NCBI GenBank assembly: GCA_947258655.1
Contig: CAMYJD010000011.1
Span: 1-64,000 of the forward strand
Direction of reading: 5' to 3'
DNA: 64,000 bases
Source of the DNA: an uncultured Gammaproteobacteria bacterium
Lineage (GTDB): Bacteria; Pseudomonadota; Gammaproteobacteria; JAADHQ01
The stretch's first letter is position 1. Each line of letters begins with the position of its first letter. Positions 1,791 to 36,772 of this stretch are shown piece by piece. The translations under genes and the position numbers were made by a program. The notes beneath the pieces are model-generated. The model was not told the origin of the DNA, searched no databases, and saw only the letters and a list, made by a program, of their open reading frames with translations.

Positions 1791-3212
1791 TCAGGCTCGC
1801 CCGTATACATCCTCATAACGGACAATATCGTCTTCTCCCAGGTACTCGCCACTCTGCACCTCGATCATGACCAGATCACAGATACCCGGATTACTCAGAC
1901 GATGCTGATGACCGGCCGGTATATAGGTTGATTGGTTGGTATGCAACAGGAAGGTTTCCTCACCATTGACCACCTCGGCCGTGCCGGAGACGACAATCCA
2001 GTGTTCATTACGATGATGATGCATCTGTAACGACAAGGAAGACCCCGGTTTTACGAGAATACGTTTGATCTTGAAGCGAGGACCCTCCTCCAGCGTGGTA
2101 TAGGTACCCCAGGGTCGATGCACCGTTTGATGAAAACGGAATAACTCGTTACCCCTGGACTTGAGCTTTTCGACGATCTTTTTAACGTCCTGGACATGCT
2201 CACGCTCCGAGATCAGCAATGCATCCGGTGTATCTACAATGATCAGGTCTTCAACACCGATCGCTGCCACCAGTCTGTCCTCGCTGTGTATATAGGTGTT
2301 GCGGGTCTCGATCGTCATCGCCGCCCCGACCATGCGATTACCCTGCTCGTCTGCGGGCGACAGCTCACTGATCGCATCCCATGAACCGACATCACCCCAG
2401 CCGATGTCACAGGCTACCACGGCAACCCTGTCGGCCTTCTCCATCACCGCATAATCGATCGAATCGGCCGGGACAGTGGCAAAGCAATCTGCATCCAGCT
2501 CGGTTGGCTGTATATCCCGCGCAGATTCCTGCCAGCACGATATAACTGCTGCATACATGTCAGGAGCACTGTTTTCCAGCGCGCGCAGATAAACACCGGG
2601 TTTGAAACAGAACATACCGGAGTTCCACAGGTAGTCTCCGGATTCGAGGTAGGCATTGGCAGTGGCAAGATCCGGCTTTTCAACAAAACTGTCTACTTTA
2701 CTGGTATTGAGCTGTGCATCCAGGGTCTCGCCCTGCTTGATATAGCCATAACCGGTCTCGGGCTTGTCCGGGCGGATACCGAAGGTGACCAGATAATCCT
2801 GGCGCGCAAGCTCCACGGCACTGGTCACGGCTGCTGCGAACGCCTGTTGTTTTTTGATAATGTGATCCGCCGGCAGAACCAGCATGACCGCATCTTCATC
2901 CTGTTGCACGGCCAATGCTGCCATCGCTATGGCCGGTGCCGTATTTCTGCCACATGGCTCCAGTATGTAGGAAAATTCCAGCGCTTGATCCAGCTCTACC
3001 TCAGTATATTCATCGCGGGTCTGAAAATAGTAATCACGGTTGGTGATGGTCAGGATCTTACTGACGTCATCAAGCTGCGCTGTGCGCTTCAGCGTTTTTT
3101 GTAACAGACCCTCGCCATCGGGCAGGCGCATAAAAGGCTTCGGATGTGCCTCTCTGGATATTGGCCACAACCGTGTGCCGGCACCGCCGGATAGAATTAC
3201 TGGTATCAACAT
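1791..3212 (-). CDS. manC: mannose-1-phosphate guanylyltransferase / mannose-6-phosphate isomerase
   Basis: Bifunctional enzyme of GDP-mannose synthesis (names in use: ManC, CpsB, AlgA), supplying mannose, rhamnose or fucose for O-antigen, capsule or exopolysaccharide. The 473-aa protein has the nucleotidyltransferase signature LSGGAGTRLWPISREAHPK at residues 8-26 and FVEKPD near residue 175; the C-terminal cupin half (about residues 350-470) contains RPWGTYTTLEEG and QMHHHRNEHWIVVSGTA with the metal-binding histidines of the type II phosphomannose isomerase. Length is normal for the family. No other polysaccharide gene lies nearby, so it appears as an isolated housekeeping copy. Confidence 0.96.
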   Translation of the reverse strand: MLIPVILSGGAGTRLWPISREAHPKPFMRLPDGEGLLQKTLKRTAQLDDVSKILTITNRDYYFQTRDEYTEVELDQALEFSYILEPCGRNTAPAIAMAALAVQQDEDAVMLVLPADHIIKKQQAFAAAVTSAVELARQDYLVTFGIRPDKPETGYGYIKQGETLDAQLNTSKVDSFVEKPDLATANAYLESGDYLWNSGMFCFKPGVYLRALENSAPDMYAAVISCWQESARDIQPTELDADCFATVPADSIDYAVMEKADRVAVVACDIGWGDVGSWDAISELSPADEQGNRMVGAAMTIETRNTYIHSEDRLVAAIGVEDLIIVDTPDALLISEREHVQDVKKIVEKLKSRGNELFRFHQTVHRPWGTYTTLEEGPRFKIKRILVKPGSSLSLQMHHHRNEHWIVVSGTAEVVNGEETFLLHTNQSTYIPAGHQHRLSNPGICDLVMIEVQSGEYLGEDDIVRYEDVYGRA

Positions 3213-3274
3213 TGTTATACGAGTCCTTATTGAAGAAGATACGAAACATAACTTAGCATATTCATTCGAATAAT

Positions 3275-3298
3275 AAAAAGGCCAGCAATGGCTGGCCT
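3275..3298 (-). terminator. Rho-independent terminator downstream of ssb
   Basis: On the minus strand a perfect 7-bp stem GGCCAGC/GCTGGCC with a 4-nt loop is followed directly by TTTTTATTATT. It begins 28 bp after the ssb stop codon and precedes manC, so ssb is probably transcribed separately from manC. Confidence 0.85.
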
Positions 3299-3325
3299 GA
3301 TGTGATGCGGATGATCAATTCTCCG

Positions 3326-3784
3326 CTAGAACGGGATATCGTCATCAAAGTCTGCCGATGAACCCGCGGGTGCGGCAGCGGGCGCCGACTTCGCGGGTGC
3401 CTGCGACGGCATATCCTGCTGGAAACCGGCACTGCCACCGCTGCGTCCACCGAGCATCTGCATTTCATTGGCAATGATCTTGGTGGTATAACGATCCTGG
3501 CCCTGCTTGTCCTGCCATTTCTCGGTACGAATGGAACCTTCAACATAGATCTGCGATCCCTTGCGCACATATTCGCCGACGATTTCTGCCAGACGACCAA
3601 AAAAAGTCACCTTGTGCCATTCGGTCCGTTCCTGCTTTTCACCGCTCTGTTTGTCCTTCCATTGCTCGGACGTTGCTACAGAAACTTCGGCCACGGCAGA
3701 GCCACTGGGCATATAGCGGACCTCCGGATCCTGACCGACATTGCCAACAATAATTGCCTTGTTTACACCACGTGCCATATTCAC
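3326..3784 (-). CDS. ssb: single-stranded DNA-binding protein SSB
   Basis: Coats single-stranded DNA in replication, recombination and repair and recruits partners through its C-terminal tip. The 152-aa protein opens [20 protein letters not shown], continues with an OB fold to about residue 110 ([37 protein letters not shown]), has a short low-complexity A/P/S/G linker and ends DFDDDIPF, the conserved partner-binding tip. The start is the Met at 3784 (MNMARG), with the alternative Met at 3778. It stands between a YajR-type MFS gene and manC. I see no convincing LexA box in its upstream 180 bp. Confidence 0.97.
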
Positions 3785-3963
3785 TCTCCAAATGTATGTT
3801 TTGATTTTGCCTGATTAGGTAATTTTTAATAAATGTGTGCAAAACATTACAGCGTATTCATATTGCCGCGAAATCGATGGACGTTTCAACGGCCGAAACC
3901 AACACTTATCATTCTGTTTGCGACGCTAACTATAACGCCTTATAACGCCAGTGCCAACGCATT

Positions 3964-5373
3964 TCAGCTGTCCTGATCCGATGCCGAATACTGTAGCAGC
4001 GCCTCCTCATCGAGGGCCTTGCTATCGACTTTCAGATAGGCCACTCGATCTTCAACAATAACAATGGCTTCGGCAACACCGGTGACGGCCGTCAATTGCG
4101 CAGACAGATGTGCCGCCTGCCCGGGCTGGACCTTGCCAATGTTTAACAGATAACTATTCAGGTAACGTGGATCTTTCATCGAACTGGCCAGTATAAGCCA
4201 CACCAGCGCCAGCGCTGCACACAGGATAAACACACTGCTATAGCCGAACTGACCATGCATCACACCACCAAGGCTGCCGCCGAGAAAAGCACCGAGGAAC
4301 TGGCTGCTGGAATAAAAACCCATCGCCGTGCCCTTGCTGGCCGGTGGTGCAATCTTTGATACCAGTGATGGCAGACTGGCCTCAAGCAGGTTAAAGGCAC
4401 TGAAAAAAACCAGCAACATCAGCACGGCCAGCCACAAATGCTGATACCACAGGGCCAGGCCGAGTTGTGCCAGTCCAATGAACAGGATAGCCCCGAGGAA
4501 TACCTTCTTCATGCGCCGGTGGCGTTCGGCTATAATGATAAAGGGCACCATGACCAGCACCGATAGCAGCAGGATCGGCAGATAAATCCACCAGTGCCGC
4601 GCGGAGTCCACGCCGAGCACATTCTGCAATACCAGCGGAAAAACGACAAAGCTGGCCGTCAGGATCATGTGTAACGTGAAAATACCGACATCGAGGCGCA
4701 GTAACTGGGTATCTCTGAGGGTCTGCGCAAACTGTGCAGGCACCGGTTCCGCATCACGATGCACGCGCTGACTGACTGGATTGGGTACCATCCAGGTCAG
4801 CACCAGCATACCCAGCACTGCCATAAACGCGGTAAACCAGAACAGGCCGCTCAAGCCTAGCCAGTGATCAAACAACGGTCCCAATACCAGCGCCAATGCA
4901 AACGCGCTACCGATACTCATACCGATCATGGCCATCGCCTTGGTCCGATGTTCCTCGCGGGTCAGGTCGGCGGCCAGGGCCATTACTGCCGCGGCGATCG
5001 CTCCACATCCCTGTAACGCGCGCCCGGCTATGACACCATAGACGGAGTCTGACATCGCCGCGACGATACTGCCCAGCGCGAACAGGCCCAGCCCCATCAG
5101 GATAACCGGCTTGCGGCCAATACGGTCGGACAACAGCCCAAACGGGATTTGCAGCAGGCCTTGGGTCAAGCCGTATATGCCAATGGCAAGACCGATCAGC
5201 GCCGGCGTCGCGCCGATCAACCTGTCCTGGTACAGGCTGATGACCGGAAACAGCATAAATAACCCCAGCATACGTATGGAATAGATGCTGGCCAGGGACA
5301 GCGCCGCCCTGCGTTCAAGCGGGGTCATACTGTGAGCTGCTTTGCTGCCGACGGTCAAAACGTCTTCCTTCAT
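3964..5373 (-). CDS. MFS transporter, YajR-like, with C-terminal ferredoxin-like domain
   Basis: Inner-membrane major facilitator of 469 aa. Twelve hydrophobic segments span about residues 24-400; the loop between helices 2 and 3 reads GLLSDRIGRKPVI, the MFS signature. After the last helix a soluble tail (about residues 405-469: KVQPGQAAHLSAQLTAVTG then VEDRVAYLKVD) matches the small cytosolic YAM domain known from E. coli YajR. Substrate unknown; drug-efflux annotation would be a guess. It is divergent from uvrA with only 71 bp between the start codons, and this ssb-MFS-uvrA order is common in gammaproteobacteria, so the neighbourhood is conserved rather than functional. Confidence 0.88.
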   Translation of the reverse strand: MKEDVLTVGSKAAHSMTPLERRAALSLASIYSIRMLGLFMLFPVISLYQDRLIGATPALIGLAIGIYGLTQGLLQIPFGLLSDRIGRKPVILMGLGLFALGSIVAAMSDSVYGVIAGRALQGCGAIAAAVMALAADLTREEHRTKAMAMIGMSIGSAFALALVLGPLFDHWLGLSGLFWFTAFMAVLGMLVLTWMVPNPVSQRVHRDAEPVPAQFAQTLRDTQLLRLDVGIFTLHMILTASFVVFPLVLQNVLGVDSARHWWIYLPILLLSVLVMVPFIIIAERHRRMKKVFLGAILFIGLAQLGLALWYQHLWLAVLMLLVFFSAFNLLEASLPSLVSKIAPPASKGTAMGFYSSSQFLGAFLGGSLGGVMHGQFGYSSVFILCAALALVWLILASSMKDPRYLNSYLLNIGKVQPGQAAHLSAQLTAVTGVAEAIVIVEDRVAYLKVDSKALDEEALLQYSASDQDS

Positions 5374-26361: not shown

Positions 26362-26910
26362 GTGAAGACATTTTTAGCGATCGGTACTTGTGCACTGCTG
26401 TTTTGCACCCAGCTATTCGCACAATCACCTGCAACTTCCCCGACAACGCCAGGCAAAAAGGACATGCGTGGGCTGGACAACCAGATTCAGGACCTGAAAA
26501 AAGAGGTACTGAAGCTGAACCGCGATCTTTTTATACTTGAGGAGGAGCTGCTGTTTCCGGCCACATCTCAGGTGGCGGTCTTTCTGTCAGTTGATGTCGG
26601 TGAATTTTTCAAACTGGACGCAGTACAACTGAAGATAGACAACAAGGTCATTAACAATTACCTGTATACAGAACGTGAAGTCGATGCGCTGCACCGCGGT
26701 GGTGTGCAGCGTTTGCACATCGGCAATCTGAAAGTTGGCAAACACGAATTGGTTGCCACCTTTACCGGCAAAGGACCTCGCGGCAGAGATTACCGCCGTG
26801 CTTCGACTCTGGTTTTCGAAAAACAGACGGATGCAAAATACCTGGAACTACAGATCGTCGATTCCGAGGCAAAATATCAACCAGTATTCAAGATCAAGGA
26901 ATGGGAATAA
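26362..26910 (+). CDS. exported coiled-coil protein, first gene of Glt-like operon
   Basis: Unrecognised by name. The 182-aa protein starts with GTG behind a strong GGAGG, has a signal peptide ending at LFAQSPA, a short coiled coil (DNQIQDLKKEVLKLNRDLFI, residues about 39-60) and a beta-rich C-terminal domain (VAVFLSVDVGEFFKLDAVQL, HIGNLKVGKHELVATFTGKG) of about 115 residues. The position ahead of two TPR proteins and a TolQ-TolR motor suggests a periplasmic part of a trans-envelope complex. Its stop codon lies about 20 bp before the next start. Confidence 0.8.
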   Translation: MKTFLAIGTCALLFCTQLFAQSPATSPTTPGKKDMRGLDNQIQDLKKEVLKLNRDLFILEEELLFPATSQVAVFLSVDVGEFFKLDAVQLKIDNKVINNYLYTEREVDALHRGGVQRLHIGNLKVGKHELVATFTGKGPRGRDYRRASTLVFEKQTDAKYLELQIVDSEAKYQPVFKIKEWE

Positions 26911-26930
26911 TTAAAAGGGAAGGCGCTACC

Positions 26931-28808
26931 GTGAGGCTCATGCTGTCAGCCGTTCTGGTTCCAGTCCTGGCAGGCCTGCTATTAACTGCTCAACCCGCCC
27001 TGTCTGCAACCACTGAAAAAATCGAACTGAAGGCTTTGCGCGACCTCGATTTCGGGCACTCGCTTTATTATTTTTTCCAGCGCGAATATATGCCGGCGAT
27101 AGTGAACCTGACGGTTGCACAACACAAGCAAACGATTCCTCACCATGCCGGTGACTCGGAGCTGCTACTCGCGGGAATGTATCTTTCCTTTGGCATGCAT
27201 CGCGAGGCCGGGATCCTGTTCGATCGACTGATTACCGCCGACGTACCCCTGCGTATCCGTAACCGTGCCTGGTTCTATCTGGCCAAAATCCGTTACCAGC
27301 GTGAACTGTATGCAGAGGCCGAACAGGCGATTGTGAAAATCGAGGGTCAATTACCCGACAAGATGGAACGCGAACGGCAACTGCTGCTGGCCAATATCCT
27401 GTTAACACAACAACGTTACACGCAAGCCGATGCGCATTTATCCTCCCTCAACGATAATTCGATCTGGTCGACCTATGCGCGTTACAACCTCGCCGTATCA
27501 CTGATTAGACAAGGTACGACGGCCCGGGGGCGGGAAATCCTCAAGGAGCTGGGCCAGGTCAAGGCAGTCGACAAGGAGGCCCAGGCAATCAGGGACCAGG
27601 CCAACCTCGCCCTGGGCTATTCGCATATTCAGGAAAAGCAGCCCGAGCAAGCCATACAATACCTGCGCAAGGTACGCCTACAGGGGCATCTATCCAACAA
27701 GGCCCTGCTCGGCCTGGGCTGGGCCTACGACCAGCAGGAAAATTACCAACGTGCACTGGCTCCGTGGCTCGAACTAAACAAACGCAATATACTCGATTCG
27801 GCTGTACAGGAATCGCTGCTTGCCACCCCCTATGCATTGGCAAAACTGAACAAGGACAAACGTGCCCTCGAGTATTACCAGAGTGCGATCGAGATTTACG
27901 GCAAAGAAATCGAACGTATTGAGGCCACCATCATCAATATCAGCAGCGGTACATTTATCAACCAAATCCTCGAAAAACAGAGCAGCAACGAAATGGGCTG
28001 GTTCTGGGAAATGGAAAATGCACCGGACAGTGCAGAAAGCCATTACTTGCTGGGCCTGCTGGCCAGTCATGCATTTCAGGAATCACTGAAAAATTACCGC
28101 GATCTGAACATCCTCAGAAACAATCTGCAGGAATGGGCGCATAATATCAATGTATTCGACACCATTCTTGAAACCCGTCGCCTGGCATATGCCAAGCGTC
28201 TGCCTGAACTGCAAAAGCATGTTACCCGCATCAATACCAACGACCTGCAGTCAAGACGTAATCAGTTCGATAATGAAATCAAGCGTATCTTTCTGACCGA
28301 TGACCTGCTCGCGATGGCCACCAACGAAGAAAAAAAACACCTGCAAAAACTAACCCAGGTCAAGGAACGCATCAACAGACTTTCCGCGCATCGCAACACG
28401 GATGCAGCGAGGGAGAAGTATCGCCTGCTACACGGCGTCATCAAATGGGATATAGCCAGCCAGTTTGGCCCGCGCGCATGGTCATTAAAAAAACAACTCA
28501 AACATCTCGACAAGGCCCTGCAGGAAAATGCCAGCATGTCCAAAAAACTACTGCTGGCCGAGAAACAAGCACCACGACGTTTTGAAGGTTTTGGTGCACG
28601 CATAGACGGTTACCGCGCACACATCGATGCCCTGATTGGACTGACCGACCAGGCACAACAAGATCAACAAAAGTTGCTGGAAACACTGGCCATCAACAGA
28701 CTCAGGGAACAGCAACAGCGCATTGACAGCTACCTGACCCATGCGCAATTTTCGGTGGCGCAGATCCAGGACAAGGCGGCGCACTCCAAAGAGGATGCGC
28801 AGCCATGA
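26931..28808 (+). CDS. periplasmic tetratricopeptide-repeat protein (GltC/GltD-like position)
   Basis: Chosen start is GTG 26931 behind GGGAAGG, which yields a clean signal peptide (LMLSAVLVPVLAGLLLTAQP, cleavage after ALSA) and a 625-aa protein; an upstream ATG at 26901 would add a charged N-terminus. TPR-type helices run through residues about 40-320 (for example MYLSFGMHREAGILFDRLI, YTQADAHLSSLNDNSIW, LGLGWAYDQQENYQRALAPW). The C-terminal half is helical and probably coiled coil. Its last codons overlap the next start (ATGA). Known relatives sit next to AglQRS-type motors; function here is inferred as a periplasmic scaffold. Confidence 0.8.
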   Translation: MRLMLSAVLVPVLAGLLLTAQPALSATTEKIELKALRDLDFGHSLYYFFQREYMPAIVNLTVAQHKQTIPHHAGDSELLLAGMYLSFGMHREAGILFDRLITADVPLRIRNRAWFYLAKIRYQRELYAEAEQAIVKIEGQLPDKMERERQLLLANILLTQQRYTQADAHLSSLNDNSIWSTYARYNLAVSLIRQGTTARGREILKELGQVKAVDKEAQAIRDQANLALGYSHIQEKQPEQAIQYLRKVRLQGHLSNKALLGLGWAYDQQENYQRALAPWLELNKRNILDSAVQESLLATPYALAKLNKDKRALEYYQSAIEIYGKEIERIEATIINISSGTFINQILEKQSSNEMGWFWEMENAPDSAESHYLLGLLASHAFQESLKNYRDLNILRNNLQEWAHNINVFDTILETRRLAYAKRLPELQKHVTRINTNDLQSRRNQFDNEIKRIFLTDDLLAMATNEEKKHLQKLTQVKERINRLSAHRNTDAAREKYRLLHGVIKWDIASQFGPRAWSLKKQLKHLDKALQENASMSKKLLLAEKQAPRRFEGFGARIDGYRAHIDALIGLTDQAQQDQQKLLETLAINRLREQQQRIDSYLTHAQFSVAQIQDKAAHSKEDAQP

Positions 28809-31621
28809 TGCGCCTGCTCTCTGTCCTGTTACTATCACTCGGACTAGCTGCCTGCTCGACCGTCAAAAAGGATCGACCTGAACCTCCAACCATCGCGTCG
28901 ATTGAAAACAACCCGGTTGATATTGAACAGGACACGACCCTGGACGCAACCAGGAACCAGGCAATCAGCAGTTATCGGAAATTCCTCAACAGTGCCGAAC
29001 AGAACCGCTACCACGCCGAAGCGATGCGCCGTGTTGCCGATCTGGAACTGGAAGAACTGGAAGATCGCGTCGCCAGGTATTCAGGGACGGATAATGAACG
29101 TGCCACCCGCGCCGCCGACTATGACAAGGTTGTCGAATTATACAGTTCAATGCTGCGTAACCATCCGAACTACGCCAACAATGATGGTGTTCTCTACCAG
29201 TTGGCCAAGGTCCATGAGCAGAGTGGAGAAATCGAAAGAGCGCTGGAGGTCTTCGACCGCCTGATCAAACAGTTCCCGCAATCAAAATATGCCACCGAAG
29301 TGCAGTTCCGTCGTGGCGAAATTCTGTTCGTGTTGCGTCGCTACAAGGACGCCAACAGCGCCTACCAGGCGGTGTTGAATGCGGGCAAGGGCACCCCTTT
29401 TTACCAGCGTGCGTTATATAAACATGGCTGGTCGGAATTCAAACGCAGCCGCTTTGAAAATGCCCTGCACTCGTTCTTTGCCCTGCTCGATATCAAGTTC
29501 AGTGATCCCGACAGCGGTCAGCTTACAGCAGAAGTCGTAACATTAAGCCGTGGCGAAAAGGAACTGTTACAGGATACATTCAGGGTTATCAGTCTGAGCT
29601 TTTCCTATCTGGACGGTGCACGCAGTATCAAGGAATATTTTGAGCGCTATCAGCACCGCCCTTATGAATACCGCGTCTACCGTCGTCTTGGCGACCTGTA
29701 TATGAAGCAGGAGCGTATACGCGATGCAGCTGACACCTATAATACCTTTGTCCGCAGCCAACCAAATCACGCTGCCGCACCGGACTTTCAAACCAGAGTC
29801 ATCGACGCCTACAAGAAGGGCGGATTCCTGCAACTGACACTGAAAGCAAAAGAGGAATTTGCCCAGCGTTATAACAAGCAGACGGTATTCTGGGAAACAC
29901 AATCCGAACAGAACAAGGAGCGTATCGGCAAACAACTGAAACTGCACCTCGAGGATCTTGCCAAGTACTATCATGCCCAGGCGCAAAAACAGAAAAAACC
30001 TGCAATCTATCGCCAGGCCACGCGCTGGTATCGCCTGTATGTCGATTCATTCCCGCAGGATCCACAAACGCCAACAATGAATTTCCTCCTCGCGGAATTG
30101 TTGTTTGAAGCCAGGGATTACCTCGACGCTGCGAGCGAATACGAGAAAACAGCCTATCAATATGGCGAACACCCACGCCGTGCGGAGGCCGGCTACGCCA
30201 GCATCCTGGCCTACAGACAGTACGAGAAAACCCTGGATGCCAGACAACGAAAGGCCTTTCATGCACGTACGATAGACAGTGAGATACGCTTTGCCGATAC
30301 ATTCCCAACCCACAAGCATACCGCCAGCGTACTGACCTCGGCAGCCGAAGATCTGTTCAAGGTCGGCAAGCTGGACCGTGCCAGTCAAATTGCCCAACGC
30401 GTTATCAATGTTCAGCCGCCAGCGAGCAAGGAATTGCGCCGCACCGCCTGGACAGTGCTTGCGCATAGTCAGTTTGAACACAAACAATATGTACAGGCAG
30501 AACAGAGCTATGCTCAGGTATTGCATCTGGGTTCGCCAGACAGCAAGCAATATGCCGCTATTCATGAACGCATGATTGCATCCGTCTACAAGCAGGGCGA
30601 GCAACAACGTGACAGCGGTAATCTGCGCGAAGGTATCAAGCATTTTCTGCGCATCGGTGCACTGGCACCACAATCGAAGATACGTGCCACCGCCCAATAT
30701 GATGCCGCCGCAAGCCTGATCCAGCTACAGGACTGGAAACGTGCTGCCAGCGTACTCGAGGATTTCAGACGTAAGTTCCCCAAACATCCGCTCAGCAAAA
30801 CCATTCCTGACAAACTGGCCCTGGTGTATCTGAGTAGCAAGCAACACAGCAAGGCTGCCGGCGAGCTGGAAAATATAGCCCGTAGCAGCAAGGATCCCAC
30901 CCGGGTCAAGGAGGCCCGCTGGCAGGCTGCAGAACTATATGAAAAGTCCGGTGCCCGTCATCAGGCCATACAAGCCTATATCAATTATGCAAGCCAGTTC
31001 CCGCAACCGTTTGAGCGTTCGATCGAGGCACGCAACAAGGTCGCCGAATTGTACAAGCGCAGCCGCAACAACAGAAAATATAAAGAATGGCTGCAAAAAA
31101 TCGTCAACGCAGAGGTCCGTGGCGGTAATCAAAGGACGGCACGGACAAAATATCTCGGCGTCAGTGCCGCCTATATCCTGGCGGAGCCGCAATACAAGGC
31201 CTTCAGTAAGATACGCCTGACGGTACCACTGAAGCGCAGCCTGAAACATAAAAAGAAGAGCATGAAAACGGTACTGGCAACCTATGAAAAAATAGCGGCA
31301 TACAATGTCTCTGAATATACCACGGCTGCCACTTACCGGATTGGTGAGATCTACAACCAGTTCAGCAAGGACCTGATGAAATCCCAGCGACCCAAAGGAC
31401 TAAAGGCAGATGAACTCGAACAGTATGAAGTGCTACTCGAAGAGCAGGCCTTCCCGTTCGAGGAAAAATCCATCGAGATACATGAGGCCAATGCCAACAG
31501 AACCGTCCAGGGTATTTATGACAAGTGGGTCAAGAAGAGCTTTGAAATTCTGCAGAAGCTCAAGCCGAACCATTATCTGAAAGCAGAACGCAGCGAGGTC
31601 AGCAGTGATGCGCTACTCTAG
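28805..31621 (+). CDS. large tetratricopeptide-repeat lipoprotein of the Glt-like operon
   Basis: A 938-aa protein with a lipoprotein signal (LLSVLLLSLGLAACSTVKK, lipobox LAAC with Cys about residue 17), so probably lipid-anchored in the outer membrane facing the periplasm. TPR units recur along its length, for example LYQLAKVHEQSGEIERALEV, FDRLIKQFPQSKYATEVQF, LLAELLFEARDYLDAASEYE and LALVYLSSKQHSKAAGELEN. This resembles the long TPR proteins AgmU/GltD and AglT/GltE of Myxococcus in architecture. Start overlaps the stop of the previous gene, and its end overlaps the next gene by 14 bp, so the three TPR genes are translationally linked. Confidence 0.82.
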   Translation: MMRLLSVLLLSLGLAACSTVKKDRPEPPTIASIENNPVDIEQDTTLDATRNQAISSYRKFLNSAEQNRYHAEAMRRVADLELEELEDRVARYSGTDNERATRAADYDKVVELYSSMLRNHPNYANNDGVLYQLAKVHEQSGEIERALEVFDRLIKQFPQSKYATEVQFRRGEILFVLRRYKDANSAYQAVLNAGKGTPFYQRALYKHGWSEFKRSRFENALHSFFALLDIKFSDPDSGQLTAEVVTLSRGEKELLQDTFRVISLSFSYLDGARSIKEYFERYQHRPYEYRVYRRLGDLYMKQERIRDAADTYNTFVRSQPNHAAAPDFQTRVIDAYKKGGFLQLTLKAKEEFAQRYNKQTVFWETQSEQNKERIGKQLKLHLEDLAKYYHAQAQKQKKPAIYRQATRWYRLYVDSFPQDPQTPTMNFLLAELLFEARDYLDAASEYEKTAYQYGEHPRRAEAGYASILAYRQYEKTLDARQRKAFHARTIDSEIRFADTFPTHKHTASVLTSAAEDLFKVGKLDRASQIAQRVINVQPPASKELRRTAWTVLAHSQFEHKQYVQAEQSYAQVLHLGSPDSKQYAAIHERMIASVYKQGEQQRDSGNLREGIKHFLRIGALAPQSKIRATAQYDAAASLIQLQDWKRAASVLEDFRRKFPKHPLSKTIPDKLALVYLSSKQHSKAAGELENIARSSKDPTRVKEARWQAAELYEKSGARHQAIQAYINYASQFPQPFERSIEARNKVAELYKRSRNNRKYKEWLQKIVNAEVRGGNQRTARTKYLGVSAAYILAEPQYKAFSKIRLTVPLKRSLKHKKKSMKTVLATYEKIAAYNVSEYTTAATYRIGEIYNQFSKDLMKSQRPKGLKADELEQYEVLLEEQAFPFEEKSIEIHEANANRTVQGIYDKWVKKSFEILQKLKPNHYLKAERSEVSSDALL

Positions 31622-32237
31622 ACTGTTATTTGCGCCGGGCATTGTGCTGATACTGGCCATCCAGGCCTGTAGCACTACCACTGTCAGTCCGGACAAAAAG
31701 CCGGCCGCGGTCACGACTGCCGGGAGCGCAACCAAACAGGCTGCAAAACCAGCCATCGATCCGGTAGCCAGCAACGCCTACCAACGGGCGCTACGCGCCA
31801 TCACGCAGGGTAATGAAGACCAGGCCGTCAGTCTGCTCACAGACATGACCGGCCAATACCCGAACTTCTCGGGTCCACATGCCAACCTGGGATTGCTTTA
31901 TTTGCGCCAGGGTGACAGCATCAAGGCCGAAGCGGCATTCAATGCAGCGCTGCGGGTCAATCCGAACAATGCGGTTGCCAATAACCATCTGGGCATTATC
32001 TATCGTCAACAGGGGCGCTTTAGCGAGGCCGAACAAGCCTACCTGAACGCGCTGCAATCCAAACCCGATTACGCCAATGCCCACCTGAACCTGGCCATAT
32101 TGTACGATATTTACCTACTGAAGTTAGATAAAGCTTTACAGCACTATCAGCAATTTCAGTCACTGCAGGCTGCGGAAGACAATACCGTAAAAAATTGGAT
32201 TATTGGTCTCAAGCGGCGCATCAAAGTGTCGAAATAA
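31608..32237 (+). CDS. small tetratricopeptide-repeat lipoprotein
   Basis: Starts at ATG 31608 inside the end of the preceding gene, with GAGG about ten bases upstream. The 209-aa protein has a lipoprotein signal (APGIVLILAIQACSTTT), a short Lys/Ala/Pro-rich linker and three classic TPRs (FSGPHANLGLLYLRQGDSIK, NAVANNHLGIIYRQQGRFSE, YANAHLNLAILYDIYLLK). It is comparable to PilF-type or GltE-type outer-membrane TPR lipoproteins. Context favours the latter, because the next genes encode a TolQ-TolR motor rather than pilus proteins. Confidence 0.82.
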   Translation: MRYSRLLFAPGIVLILAIQACSTTTVSPDKKPAAVTTAGSATKQAAKPAIDPVASNAYQRALRAITQGNEDQAVSLLTDMTGQYPNFSGPHANLGLLYLRQGDSIKAEAAFNAALRVNPNNAVANNHLGIIYRQQGRFSEAEQAYLNALQSKPDYANAHLNLAILYDIYLLKLDKALQHYQQFQSLQAAEDNTVKNWIIGLKRRIKVSK

Positions 32238-32251
32238 TATAGAGGTGAAGC

Positions 32252-32530
32252 ATGAAAAAGTTTGCGTATATATTAACAGGTATGCTTTTCTCGCTTGCGG
32301 CCCTGGCGGCAGATGAAGTTGAACTGGAAGGCACATCGATCATCGGTAACCGTGAGTTACCCAAGGTGCTGTATATCGCGCCATGGAAAAAACCGTATAT
32401 GAGCGAACTGGGGCGCCCGGTCAACTCATTAATCAATGATACGCTGGCTCCGATCGAACGTGACGTAATGACCAGGACCATCCGTTATCATGATCAGCTG
32501 GCAGAACAACAGCAGGCAGGCAAGCCCTGA
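32252..32530 (+). CDS. small exported protein of the Glt-like operon, 92 aa
   Basis: A signal peptide (KKFAYILTGMLFSLAALAAD, cleavage after ALA) precedes about 72 mature residues with KVLYIAPWKKPYMSELGRPV and a charged helical end. GAGGTG lies seven bases before the ATG. I do not recognise a family. It is the last gene before a 138-bp gap and the motor genes, so it may be a soluble periplasmic linker of the same complex. Confidence 0.72.
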   Translation: MKKFAYILTGMLFSLAALAADEVELEGTSIIGNRELPKVLYIAPWKKPYMSELGRPVNSLINDTLAPIERDVMTRTIRYHDQLAEQQQAGKP

Positions 32531-32668: not shown

Positions 32669-33319
32669 ATGGATACCTATAACGCTATAGTCAGCTTCTT
32701 TCAGGATGGAGGTATCTTTATGTACCCCATTGTTATTGTTTTCGCACTGGGCCTGGCTATCGCTATCGAACGTTATATTTACCTAACCCTGGCCAAGACC
32801 AACAACAGCCGCTTATGGAAAAAGATCATCCCAATGGTCAAAACAGGGCGTTTTGATCAGGCCAACGAAATCATCAATAAATCCAAGTCAGCCATTTGCA
32901 AGATCCTGTCCTACGGCATGGACCGCATCAAGATTGCCCGCCGCCGCGATGATCTGGAAACAGCACTGGAAGAAGGCCTGATGGAAGTCATTCCACGACT
33001 GGAGAAGCGCACGCATTACCTGGCGACACTGGCCAATATTGCGACGCTGCTGGGCCTGCTCGGTACCATTATGGGATTGATCTCGGCATTCACAGCGGTA
33101 TCCAATGCCGATCCTGCAGACAAGGCCAACCTGTTATCGTCCAGTATATCGGTGGCAATGAACACGACCGCCTTTGGACTGATGTCGGCAATACCATTAC
33201 TGCTGATCTATACCGTGTTACAGACCAAGACTACCGAAGTCGTGGACAGCCTGGAAATGGCATCGGTGAAATTCATGAATGCGGTGCAGGAAGTCAAGGA
33301 AAGAGCCACTAAATCATAA
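32669..33319 (+). CDS. TolQ/ExbB/MotA-family proton channel protein (AglR-like)
   Basis: Inner-membrane stator subunit expected to form a pentamer with ExbD/TolR dimers and convert proton flow to motion or force. The 216-aa protein has helix 1 at residues about 15-35 (GGIFMYPIVIVFALGLAIAI), a cytoplasmic loop (residues 40-110) and helices 2-3 with LATLANIATLLGLLGTIMGL, ISAFTAVSNADP and ISVAMNTTAFGLMSAIPLLL. The last two carry the conserved Thr and small residues of the family. AAGGAG at a perfect distance marks the start. The gene ends in TAATG overlap with the first ExbD gene. Confidence 0.93.
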   Translation: MDTYNAIVSFFQDGGIFMYPIVIVFALGLAIAIERYIYLTLAKTNNSRLWKKIIPMVKTGRFDQANEIINKSKSAICKILSYGMDRIKIARRRDDLETALEEGLMEVIPRLEKRTHYLATLANIATLLGLLGTIMGLISAFTAVSNADPADKANLLSSSISVAMNTTAFGLMSAIPLLLIYTVLQTKTTEVVDSLEMASVKFMNAVQEVKERATKS

Positions 33320-33843
33320 TGAACAGATATAACCGTTACCGGGACAATTCTCCCCCGGAACTGAACATCACTGCGTTCATGAACCTGATGGTAATCCTGG
33401 TACCGTTCCTGTTGATTACCGCGGTATTCTCGCGCATCACGATATTGCAGTTGAACCTGCCTGAGGGCAGTAATGCGGCAATAGAGAACCTGAAAAAGGA
33501 GATGCACCTTGAAATCACCGTACGCAAGGACTATCTGGATGTCGGCACACGCGAAGCCGGACGTATCCGTTGCCTCAAGGCCACTGCAGACGGTTATGAT
33601 TACCAGGCACTGTCCGAACTGATCCAGCAAATCAAGTTGCGCGTACCGAACAAGAAAAATATTACCCTGCTGGCAGAAACCAACACCGCTTACGAAATCA
33701 TCGTCAAGCTGATGGATGCATCACGCTCAATCAAGCAGACTCAGGGTCTGGCGGTCGTTGATGCTGAACTGTTCCCGAACATTTCCATCGGCGATGCGCC
33801 ACCATTAAATCCGGCGCAATTAAAGGCAGGATGTCCGTCATGA
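33319..33843 (+). CDS. ExbD/TolR-family protein lacking the membrane Asp
   Basis: A 174-aa single-pass protein: short N-terminal cytoplasmic segment, one helix (NITAFMNLMVILVPFLLITA, residues 16-35) and a periplasmic ExbD-like domain (for example DYQALSELIQQIKLRVPNKK and ITLLAETNTAYEIIVKLMDA). In ExbD and TolR the helix holds an essential proton-accepting Asp (D25 and D23 in E. coli) in a VD or MD motif. Here that position is Asn22 (FMNLM), so this subunit alone should not carry protons. It pairs with the second ExbD, which keeps the Asp. Start overlaps the TolQ stop. Confidence 0.9.
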   Translation: MNRYNRYRDNSPPELNITAFMNLMVILVPFLLITAVFSRITILQLNLPEGSNAAIENLKKEMHLEITVRKDYLDVGTREAGRIRCLKATADGYDYQALSELIQQIKLRVPNKKNITLLAETNTAYEIIVKLMDASRSIKQTQGLAVVDAELFPNISIGDAPPLNPAQLKAGCPS

Positions 33844-34343
33844 AGATGTCTCGTCGCGCAAGACGAATGCAACGTCACCATAAACGTAAAAAAAGTGCCA
33901 TTGCCTTCAACATGGTCTCGCTGATGGACATCTTTACGATCCTGGTATTTTTTCTGCTGGTCAGTTCGTCCGATGTCGAGGAACTGCAAAACAACAAGAG
34001 CATACGCCTGCCGGAATCGACCGCTGAGAAGAAACCCAAGGAAACCCTCGTGATCATGGTCAATAACGACGATATTATCGTCAAGGGGCGCAAGGTCGCT
34101 ACGGCTGCCGATGTCATGAACAGCAAGGACGCAACCATCCCGCTGCTCAAACAGGAGCTCGACTATCAGGCCAGTCGCGCACAGCCGCGTGAAGCCGGAG
34201 AAAAATTTGCAGGTGAAGTGACCATCATGGGTGACCGCAAGATCCCCTACCAGTTATTGAAGAAAATCATGGTCACGTGTGCGCGCAGTAATTACACCAA
34301 GCTATCACTGGCAGTAAACCAGGCAGGATCGGGGAGTCAATAG
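33831..34343 (+). CDS. ExbD/TolR-family protein with the membrane Asp
   Basis: A 170-aa ExbD-type protein with a very basic N-terminus (RRARRMQRHHKRKKS), then a helix NMVSLMDIFTILVFFLLVSS in which Asp33 occupies the conserved proton-binding site, and a periplasmic domain with LVIMVNNDDIIVKGRKVATA. It is longer in the cytoplasmic part than its neighbour. Start is either ATG 33831 behind AAAGGCAGG or ATG 33840, which overlaps the preceding stop codon as ATGA. Together the two ExbDs may form the heterodimer inside the TolQ-like pentamer. Confidence 0.9.
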   Translation: MSVMKMSRRARRMQRHHKRKKSAIAFNMVSLMDIFTILVFFLLVSSSDVEELQNNKSIRLPESTAEKKPKETLVIMVNNDDIIVKGRKVATAADVMNSKDATIPLLKQELDYQASRAQPREAGEKFAGEVTIMGDRKIPYQLLKKIMVTCARSNYTKLSLAVNQAGSGSQ

Positions 34344-34345
34344 AC

Positions 34346-35275
34346 ATGAACCTGACAATGGAAAGAGCTGTCGAACTGCCCTGGTCTAGCAATGCCGATG
34401 AAAGCACCCGTTTTCGCAATATCGTCATTGTTGTCCTGGCTGTTACGCTAATACTGTCCATTATCATCCCCAATCTGACCGTCGAAAAGCCGGAGCGCAA
34501 GAAAGCGGAAGAAATACCACCGCGTTTTGCCAAACTGATCCTGGAAAAAAAGACCCCGCCACCACCCCCGCCACCCAAGGTGGAGAAGAAACCGGAAAAG
34601 AAGGTCGAGAAGAAAAAAGTCATTCCGAAAAAGAAGATCGTCAAAAAGAAAAAGAAGGTCGTCAAACCTGATCCGGACCGCGCGCGCAAGGTAGCAGAAA
34701 AGTCAGGGCTGCTGGCATTCCAGGATGATCTTGCCGACCTCAGGACCAGTGTTTCCGACCAGGTACTGAAAAACCGCAATCTGCAAAAAGGCGGTAATGA
34801 GGCGCAGAAAACCACACGTAATATCATCAGCGCCAAAGCGACCAGCGCCAGTGGCGGTATCAACACCTCGCGCCTCAGTCGTGATACCGGCGGCAGCAAT
34901 CTTGCCAGTCGCAGCGTGACCCAGGTAGAGAGCAAACTCAAGGCAAAGAAAACCACGGTTAAACGCTCTGGCAGCAGTCGCAAGGCCTCGCGTTCGATAG
35001 AGGAGCTACAACTGGTATTCGACAAGAACAAGGGCGCCATTTATGCCATCTACAACCGCGCGCTACGTAAGGACCCAAGCCTGCAAGGCAAAGTCGTGCT
35101 TAAACTGACCATCGCTCCATCCGGGCATGTTAGCAAATGCAGCATCGTCTCCAGCGAGCTGAACAATCCCAGGCTGGAACGTAAACTGGTGGCACGGGTA
35201 AAACTGTTCCGCTTTGGCGCCAGGAATGTGGACACCATGGTCACGACCTACCCGATAGAGTTCCTGCCGTCCTGA
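34346..35275 (+). CDS. TonB-like protein with AgmX/PglI-type C-terminal domain
   Basis: A 309-aa energy-transducing protein: cytoplasmic N-terminus, one membrane helix (IVIVVLAVTLILSIIIPNL, residues about 26-44), a proline run followed by a long Lys-rich spacer (residues about 68-112), a Ser/Thr/Arg-rich middle, and a C-terminal domain beginning IEELQLVFDKNKGAIYAIYN with LQGKVVLKLTIAPSGHVSKC and ending FGARNVDTMVTTYPIEFLPS. That end is typical of the AgmX/PglI (GltJ/GltG) tail, a TonB_C relative. It would couple the TolQ-ExbD motor to the TPR lipoproteins. Last gene of the operon. Confidence 0.88.
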   Translation: MNLTMERAVELPWSSNADESTRFRNIVIVVLAVTLILSIIIPNLTVEKPERKKAEEIPPRFAKLILEKKTPPPPPPPKVEKKPEKKVEKKKVIPKKKIVKKKKKVVKPDPDRARKVAEKSGLLAFQDDLADLRTSVSDQVLKNRNLQKGGNEAQKTTRNIISAKATSASGGINTSRLSRDTGGSNLASRSVTQVESKLKAKKTTVKRSGSSRKASRSIEELQLVFDKNKGAIYAIYNRALRKDPSLQGKVVLKLTIAPSGHVSKCSIVSSELNNPRLERKLVARVKLFRFGARNVDTMVTTYPIEFLPS

Positions 35276-35548: not shown

Positions 35549-36772
35549 ATGATCGCAGCTCCCTACCCCGACAATGAACATGACAGAATCCACAAACTCG
35601 AAGATCTGGATATACTGGATACATTAGAGGAACAGGCCTATGACGACCTGACCTTCCTGGCGGCACAGATATGTAACACACCCATCGCCCTGGTTAGCCT
35701 GGTTGACAGCGATCGCCAATGGTTCAAATCTCATCACGGCCTGGATGCACGCGAAACACCTCGTGACATCGCCTTCTGCGCCCATGCCATCCTCGGTGAC
35801 GAGGTCATGGTCGTCGAGGATTCGGAAAAAGACGAGCGCTTTCATGACAATCCGCTGGCGACCGATGCACCGCATGTAAAATTCTATGCCGGCGCACCCT
35901 TGATACTCGACAATAACATTCATCTGGGGACCTTATGTGTCATCGATAATGAGGCCCGTAGCATTTCTGCAGATCAAAAAAAGTCCCTGCAAGCACTCGC
36001 CCGCCAGGTCGTCAGCCAGTTGCAACTGCGTCTGAAGCTACAGGAAATGAAGGTCCTGGATCAGGCCAAGGATGAGTTCCTTGCTGTCGTCAGCCATGAA
36101 CTGCGTACTCCACTTACCTCGATCTATGGGTCACTTGGATTGTTACAAAAAAAGGCATCATCATTACCTGACACGGGCAGACAGATGATTGATATCGCGT
36201 ACCGCAACAGCGCCAGACTCATCGGCATCGTCAACGACATCCTCGACCTGGCCAAGCTGGAAGCAGGCAAATACGATATCAATAATGAAATTATCGATCC
36301 CATTGCACTGGCCGAACGGGCGATAGAACTGAATAGCAGTTACTGTCAACAGTGCGGCTGCCAGATAAAACTTGAACAGCCGGCTGCGCCGCAGATCCCG
36401 AAGATTAATGGTGATGAGCAACGCCTGTTACAGGTACTTGGCAACCTGATATCCAACGCCGCTAAATTCACGCATCAGGACGACACCATTATTATTTCTG
36501 TCGCCAGCGACGCCAATACAGTCTCTATCAAGGTCACCGACCACGGCAAGGGCCTGACACAACAACAGCAAGGGCAGCTGTTCGAAAAATTCAGACAGGC
36601 GGGCAATAATGGCAACCAGAAACTGCCAGGCACCGGCCTGGGCCTAAATATCTGCAAACATATCATAGAGTTACATAATGGAACTATCACCTGCAAATCG
36701 GTTCCAAACCAATACACAAGTTTTTATTTTTCTCTGCCAGCGGTAAAAGAAGTCGATCCAATGTACGCGTGA
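35549..36772 (+). CDS. GAF-domain sensor histidine kinase (soluble)
   Basis: A 407-aa cytoplasmic kinase with no membrane segment. The N-terminal GAF domain (about residues 20-160) reads TLEEQAYDDLTFLAAQICNT and GAPLILDNNIHLGTLCVID. HisKA has the phospho-acceptor His183 in EFLAVVSHELRTPLTSIYG; the ATPase domain shows LGNLISNAAKFT (N box), VTDHGKGL (G1) and GTGLGLNICKHIIELHNGTI (G2). No response regulator is adjacent; the following gene overlaps its stop but is not a receiver. The ligand of the GAF domain is unknown. Confidence 0.92.
   Translation: MIAAPYPDNEHDRIHKLEDLDILDTLEEQAYDDLTFLAAQICNTPIALVSLVDSDRQWFKSHHGLDARETPRDIAFCAHAILGDEVMVVEDSEKDERFHDNPLATDAPHVKFYAGAPLILDNNIHLGTLCVIDNEARSISADQKKSLQALARQVVSQLQLRLKLQEMKVLDQAKDEFLAVVSHELRTPLTSIYGSLGLLQKKASSLPDTGRQMIDIAYRNSARLIGIVNDILDLAKLEAGKYDINNEIIDPIALAERAIELNSSYCQQCGCQIKLEQPAAPQIPKINGDEQRLLQVLGNLISNAAKFTHQDDTIIISVASDANTVSIKVTDHGKGLTQQQQGQLFEKFRQAGNNGNQKLPGTGLGLNICKHIIELHNGTITCKSVPNQYTSFYFSLPAVKEVDPMYA

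Follow-up and report, generated by a model that had tools for sequence, protein, structure and literature searches.

A conserved asparagine/aspartate split between paired ExbD proteins suggests an asymmetric ion motor in Gammaproteobacteria

The transmembrane aspartate of ExbD, TolR and MotB proteins is essential. Why, then, would a bacterium encode two ExbD-type proteins side by side and carry an asparagine at this position in one of them? The question is raised by a 64-kb stretch of DNA from an uncultured gammaproteobacterium (the window), for which the preliminary description had reported Asn22 in a first ExbD-like protein (ExbD1) and Asp33 in a second (ExbD2), and had proposed an obligate heterodimer with one protonatable site. 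The open reading frame translations bear out both residues together with their coordinates, numbering and helix strings. The two genes lie in an apparent operon of nine genes, on the + strand at approximately 26.4-35.3 kb:

26362..26910, + strand: 182-aa exported protein that opens the apparent operon; no family match
26901..28808, + strand: 635-aa TPR-containing exported protein with weak TPR-type matches; its start overlaps the preceding stop
28805..31621, + strand: 938-aa large TPR lipoprotein, lipobox GLAAC, matching TPR families and YbgF/BamD-type repeats
31605..32237, + strand: 210-aa GltE-like TPR lipoprotein, lipobox LAIQAC (NF033758 gliding_GltE, E 2.4e-14, under the equivalog cut-off)
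32252..32530, + strand: 92-aa protein whose N-terminus resembles a signal peptide; matches neither Pfam nor NCBIfam families
32669..33319, + strand: ExbB/TolQ/AglR-like pentamer subunit (PF01618, 100.7 bits)
33319..33843, + strand: ExbD1, 174 aa, with Asn22 at the ion-carrier position (PF02472, 55.3 bits)
33382..33384, + strand: AAC codon of ExbD1 Asn22, read from the sequence
33831..34343, + strand: ExbD2, 170 aa, with Asp33 (PF02472, 67.7 bits)
33927..33929, + strand: GAC codon of ExbD2 Asp33, read from the sequence
34346..35275, + strand: GltG/AgmX-like TonB/TolA-type force transducer (NF033768, 70.6 bits, cut-off 40)

The ExbD1 and ExbD2 genes share 13 nt, and the pair comes directly after the MotA/TolQ/ExbB-family gene. 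Both products score above the curated PF02472 (ExbD) cut-off of 25.4 bits. Asn22 lies in the ExbD1 transmembrane helix NITAFMNLMVILVPFLLI, within the stretch ELNITAFMNLMVILVPFLLI, and Asp33 in the ExbD2 transmembrane helix NMVSLMDIFTILVFFLLV, within the stretch AFNMVSLMDIFTILVFFLLV. AlphaFold2 models of both proteins show a transmembrane helix and a periplasmic domain (pLDDT 76.6 for ExbD1 and 78.1 for ExbD2). The best Foldseek matches of ExbD2 are to ExbD (8pek, 8vgc, 8vgd and 8p9r) and TolR (5by4), with 8pek at the top (E 5e-4) and E values of 5e-4 to 7e-3 across 8pek, 8p9r and 5by4. For ExbD1, the ExbD periplasmic domain 8pek stands seventh (prob 0.99, rmsd 2.9, E 0.035), a weaker match, so that the fold call leans mainly on the PF02472 sequence match. 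Judged by homology, ExbD1 is thus a member of the ExbD/TolR family without its catalytic hallmark aspartate.

To which kind of system does the operon belong? A cluster of aglR/Q/S and gltC/D/E/G genes was described in Gammaproteobacteria as a core complex whose function was unknown (Luciano et al. 2011, PMC3169522). That account names Saccharophagus degradans, Teredinibacter and Marinobacter among the organisms with the operon. The window operon very probably belongs to this Agl-Glt Group B core complex: it comes from the same class and has two TolR-like genes behind one TolQ-like gene, clustered with genes for a GltG-like, TonB-like protein and for TPR proteins. The GltE and GltG equivalog models match operon proteins, both under their cut-offs. 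By operon position and by comparison with Group B, the 635-aa protein would be the probable counterpart of GltC; the 938-aa lipoprotein, which stands at the equivalent place in relatives, is the probable counterpart of GltD. Most relatives conserve the 92-aa gene at this place, between the genes for the GltE-like protein and ExbB, and its product is likely an unnamed component of the complex. A GAF-domain-like sensor histidine kinase (35549-36772) adjoins the operon downstream. Membership in Tol-Pal, which would be marked by TolB and Pal in the operon and by the TolQ and TolR equivalogs, was considered and rejected: the TolQ and TolR equivalog models score under their cut-offs, and TIGR02795 (the ybgF repeat) passes on the operon's TPR protein only. 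The better-scoring ExbD/TolR-family genes of this genome sit on other contigs (C3 and C30).

Is the split between the two proteins maintained? Relatives were gathered by a genome-contig scan, a relatives search, a profile survey of 369 genomes of the class and a survey of 397 genomes of the phylum, yielding 178 dereplicated ExbD1/ExbD2 pairs, all from Gammaproteobacteria. At the carrier position, every ExbD2 has Asp (178/178; codons GAT 104 and GAC 74), and ExbD1 has Asn in 174 pairs, Ser in two and Asp in two, leaving the position non-ionisable in 176 of the 178. The preliminary description had held that the split is selected if orthologous pairs keep it, and they do so across Gammaproteobacteria; it named as contrary outcomes random residues at this position, or close relatives with Asp in the two copies alike, and we looked for both and found neither. 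Three genomes of the same genus (78-87% identical) are all N/D, as is each copy read in genomes with two or three copies of the operon. The Asn22 column is 98% kept and ranks 14th of 160 by entropy, within a nearly invariant helix, T-x-F-M-N-L-M-V. Other ExbD/TolR-type paralogues aligned from these loci carry Asp in about 20 of 20 readable cases. A carboxylate displaced along the ExbD1 helix was sought as well and rejected, the transmembrane segment being otherwise devoid of Asp, Glu, Lys, Arg and His in 176/178. The two Ser-bearing ExbD1 proteins, likewise non-ionisable, come from unrelated genomes (L195 in G329 and L206 in G669) and use AGT.

A neutral accident or a recent loss, leaving a pseudo-active site, could in principle produce such a pattern, as could deamidation of the Asn to Asp after translation. 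The step from AAC to GAC is a single transition, and two operons with Asp in both proteins (D/D) do exist. Both Asn codons are nonetheless used among the orthologues (AAC 111, AAT 63), although one A-to-G step regains Asp, so it is the amino acid and not the DNA word that is conserved; the N/D arrangement recurs in about 98% of the 178 pairs, which span many families, and is seen again in duplicated operon copies and in a phylogenetic sample drawn independently of the Asn. This last point removes a possible sampling bias, as one search used the peptide pattern ITAFMNLM, which includes the Asn, whereas the profile searches cannot have a match decided by a single residue. Rapid deamidation is not expected either, the residue after the Asn being Leu (also Met, Val or Ile) and not Gly. 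We regard accident or deamidation as highly improbable; on the sequence record, the N/D split is ancient and under selection.

The two genes are as constant as the residues. All 177 loci in which ExbB is present have the order ExbB, ExbD1, ExbD2 on one strand, with ExbD1 and ExbD2 overlapping in 89 of them and separated by a gap of 0-20 nt in a further 71. ExbD2 was found in 88 of the 369 class genomes and ExbD1 in 87 of these; in the 88th (G077), ExbD1 is cut by the contig end. Could the gene order be an artefact of fetching loci on ExbD1? A second survey that started from ExbD2 gave the same pairing. ExbD1 and ExbD2 are an obligate gene pair in approximately a quarter of the sampled Gammaproteobacteria. 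There were no strong ExbD1 matches outside Gammaproteobacteria in the 397-genome phylum survey, and a search of viral contigs and plasmids returned no relatives, the plasmid ExbB matches being distant only. One genome (G258) holds an additional ExbD2 (L228, 2377-3435 on C309), an N-terminally truncated orphan joined to an unrelated reading frame on its N-terminal side; neither ExbB nor ExbD1 was detected in the fetched stretch around it, and it is a decayed copy of the operon.

When did the asymmetry arise, and can it be lost? ExbD1 and ExbD2 form two clades separate from other ExbDs (SH-aLRT 93 and 97), and the carrier states need four changes if the locus L197 is basal: one D-to-N, one N-to-D (in L019) and two N-to-S. 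L197 and L019 are the two divergent D/D operons. L197 (G355; 3035-4051 and 2474-3031) falls at the base of the ExbD1 clade in the full tree, and nests weakly inside that clade once the transmembrane columns are left out; its ExbD1 transmembrane helix closely resembles its ExbD2 helix. Its sequences would thus fit either an ancestral Asp in ExbD1 or a later replacement of the transmembrane segment. The ExbB of L197 is the sole one of 177 with a TolQ-type Glu in TM3, and a rule linking D/D to this Glu was rejected, since L019 has Val. L019 (G020; 1001-2744) is D/D within the Asn clade, with both ExbD transmembrane helices remodelled (IVPMLDVMV and ALIPMIDML), and is a natural reversion to Asp; G267 (locus L133), a second genome with the same family code, is N/D. 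Asymmetry, as read from these sequences, is the rule, yet it is losable, and a second Asp is tolerated in some lineages.

What might ExbD1 do without an ionisable residue in its membrane helix? It might have no motor role at all, and instead be a periplasmic structural subunit that docks to peptidoglycan or GltG, with its transmembrane segment a mere anchor and its Asn serving packing. Besides the missing ionisable residue, this reading can draw on the location of the strongest conservation, which includes periplasmic and C-terminal motifs. A mere anchor would however be expected to drift, yet the Asn and its helix are held nearly constant with both codons in use, and ExbD1 has retained a docking motif of the Glu14 type: at the position of ExbD Glu14, a residue that touches ExbB in the structure from E. 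coli (PMC12215075), 174 of 177 ExbD1 proteins have Glu or Asp, and this acidic residue is absent from ExbD2. A purely structural ExbD1 thus seems rather unlikely to us, and the retained motif suggests a division of labour within a motor, ExbD2 acting as the ion carrier and ExbD1 bringing the classical docking motif. Each paralogue has further features of its own. ExbD1 has a conserved Pro29 and a C-terminal LFPxISIGDAP, and ExbD2 alone has a conserved basic cytoplasmic helix at its N-terminus (33831-33890; MKMSRRARRMQRHHKR, consensus MKxSRRAxRMxRHHKR), which could occupy the cytoplasmic cavity of ExbB or serve as a binding site for a cytosolic partner.

Do the two proteins share a single pore? 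The top ExbD1-ExbD2 mean-field coupling is 1.89, against a mean of 1.24 under random re-pairing and 1.01 under a nearest-neighbour swap, a control that leaves the phylogeny roughly intact (Meff about 129). Pairs between the two transmembrane segments are mildly enriched among the couplings, and the top such pair joins ExbD1 Met21 and ExbD2 Met32, the residues immediately before Asn22 and Asp33. These two positions turn beta-branched jointly in 10 of 11 cases, and in 4/4 phylogenetically independent pairs, a number too small to reach significance (sign test p = 0.125). No interpretable pattern emerged for ExbD1 Glu14 against ExbB 190. The covariation of ExbD1 with ExbD2 is weak and suggestive; the ExbD1-ExbB couplings are equal in strength, so that covariation at best indicates co-residence in one complex, more than any specific contact.

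This equality is also one of the arguments for a different arrangement, in which the two proteins form separate homodimers, ExbD2 pairs powering an ExbB pentamer and ExbD1 pairs sitting in separate inactive or regulatory ExbB units of that envelope complex, for example as anchors or brakes. ExbD and TolR do homodimerise elsewhere, including in E. coli, and the paralogue-specific features (the ExbD2 basic helix, the ExbD1 Pro29 and LFPxISIGDAP) would suit distinct assemblies. A mixed axle is simpler, given a single ExbB gene, tight translational coupling of ExbD1 and ExbD2, their reciprocal presence and covariation of their membrane segments beside the critical residues. All this evidence, the Glu14-type motif and the covariation included, fits a mixed dimer as well as two homodimers in one larger assembly, and we consider the two-homodimer arrangement a minority possibility, to be taken more seriously than a structural ExbD1. 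From adjacency, coupling, pairing, the Glu14 motif and covariation together, we infer that ExbD1 and ExbD2 share one ExbB pore as a heterodimer.

In the pore, ExbB Thr133 (TM2) and Thr167 (TM3) are Thr in 177/177, Asn165 is near-invariant, and the tandem Thr of TM3 resembles that of PomA. The TolQ Glu of TM3 is replaced by Val here, and by Val or Ile in nearly all relatives. The transducer has one transmembrane helix, a Pro/Lys-rich linker and an AgmX/PglI C-terminal domain, with a weak TonB_C match. TonB and TolA use the His of an SHLS motif for motor coupling; there is no such His in the transmembrane segment of the window transducer, and His occurs in the transmembrane columns of 10/202 relatives, so its engagement with ExbB must differ.

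How might such a motor work? We favour, as the probable though by no means settled reading, an ExbB5:ExbD1:ExbD2 ion motor with one ion-carrying carboxylate and the Asn as a permanently neutral stand-in for Asp; the fuller claim, of a widely conserved 5:1:1 motor with an obligate Asp/Asn axle heterodimer, a single carboxylate and a broken-symmetry cycle, we would put at about an even chance. Asparagine is isosteric with protonated aspartate and is its closest neutral mimic. The complex would be an inner-membrane motor of the AglRQS/ExbBD/TolQR class, driven by H+ or possibly Na+, in which five ExbB/AglR-like subunits would assemble into a pore, bearing the usual Thr rings, around a central axle of one ExbD1 and one ExbD2. 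Asp33 of ExbD2 would be the sole protonatable site and carry the ion, and Asn22 of ExbD1, at the equivalent place, would be a permanently neutral hydrogen-bonding partner that could satisfy the Thr ring. Changing the carrier from Asp to Asn abolishes function in related motors, as in AglQ D28N (PMC3858216) and PomB D24N (PMC6677748), so a motor built on ExbD1 alone should not run, and the ion has to be carried by ExbD2. A dedicated inactive partner is plausible, since the two Asp of TolAQR already lie in unlike environments. Published rotary models advance by 36 degrees with each ion as the channel switches between two essential Asp (PMC12215075), and a full turn takes 10 ions (PMC9389320); with one active site per dimer, the motor would instead have either to take 5 ions per turn, in effective steps of 72 degrees with a passive half-step, or to perform a one-sided stroke. 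The GltG/AgmX-like protein would pass the force to the outer-membrane TPR lipoproteins (GltC/D/E-like).

How does the operon compare with characterised systems? The AglRQS motor of Myxococcus xanthus likewise combines one ExbB/TolQ-like and two ExbD/TolR-like subunits, and AglQ D28 is essential there (PMC3858216). A 2022 review states that AglQ and AglS both carry Asp, leaving open whether they form homo- or heterodimers (PMC9389320), whereas one copy in the window operon has Asn; another review suggested a hand-over-hand role for AglQ and AglS (PMC9120999). AglRQS is a gliding motor, but gliding is not implied for the window operon. E. coli ExbBD-TonB and TolQRA share with it the 5:2-class subunits, the Thr rings, the ExbD/TolR periplasmic fold and a TonB-like transducer. 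They have a single ExbD or TolR gene and a homodimer with two Asp, in contrast to the two ExbD genes here, and the window operon lacks the TM3 Glu and the SHLS His. The MotAB and PomAB stators are also of the 5:2 class, with an essential B-subunit Asp and tandem TM3 Thr (Thr166-Thr167 here, T185/T186 in PomA); by contrast, the window operon has two unlike B subunits and neither an OmpA-like peptidoglycan domain nor a flagellar context. In the part of the Group B account available to us, the carrier residue is not mentioned and an Asn/Asp split is not described (PMC3169522), and no published Asn/Asp ExbD pair was found in the open-licence literature. The operon type is known but little studied, and the conserved N/D split is apparently new to the literature. 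An asymmetric mechanism is what we strongly infer from it, in a form open to test.

A motor that runs on one proton site, in place of the two that current models assume, may thus exist in nature. If so, these operons would provide a natural test of the MotAB, ExbBD and TolQR rotary models, in which two aspartates take turns, and of whether two carriers are needed at all. The helices of the axle would be distinguishable and separately mutable, which is impossible in homodimeric systems, and the arrangement would bear on how AglQ and AglS dimerise, each with itself or with the other (PMC9389320).
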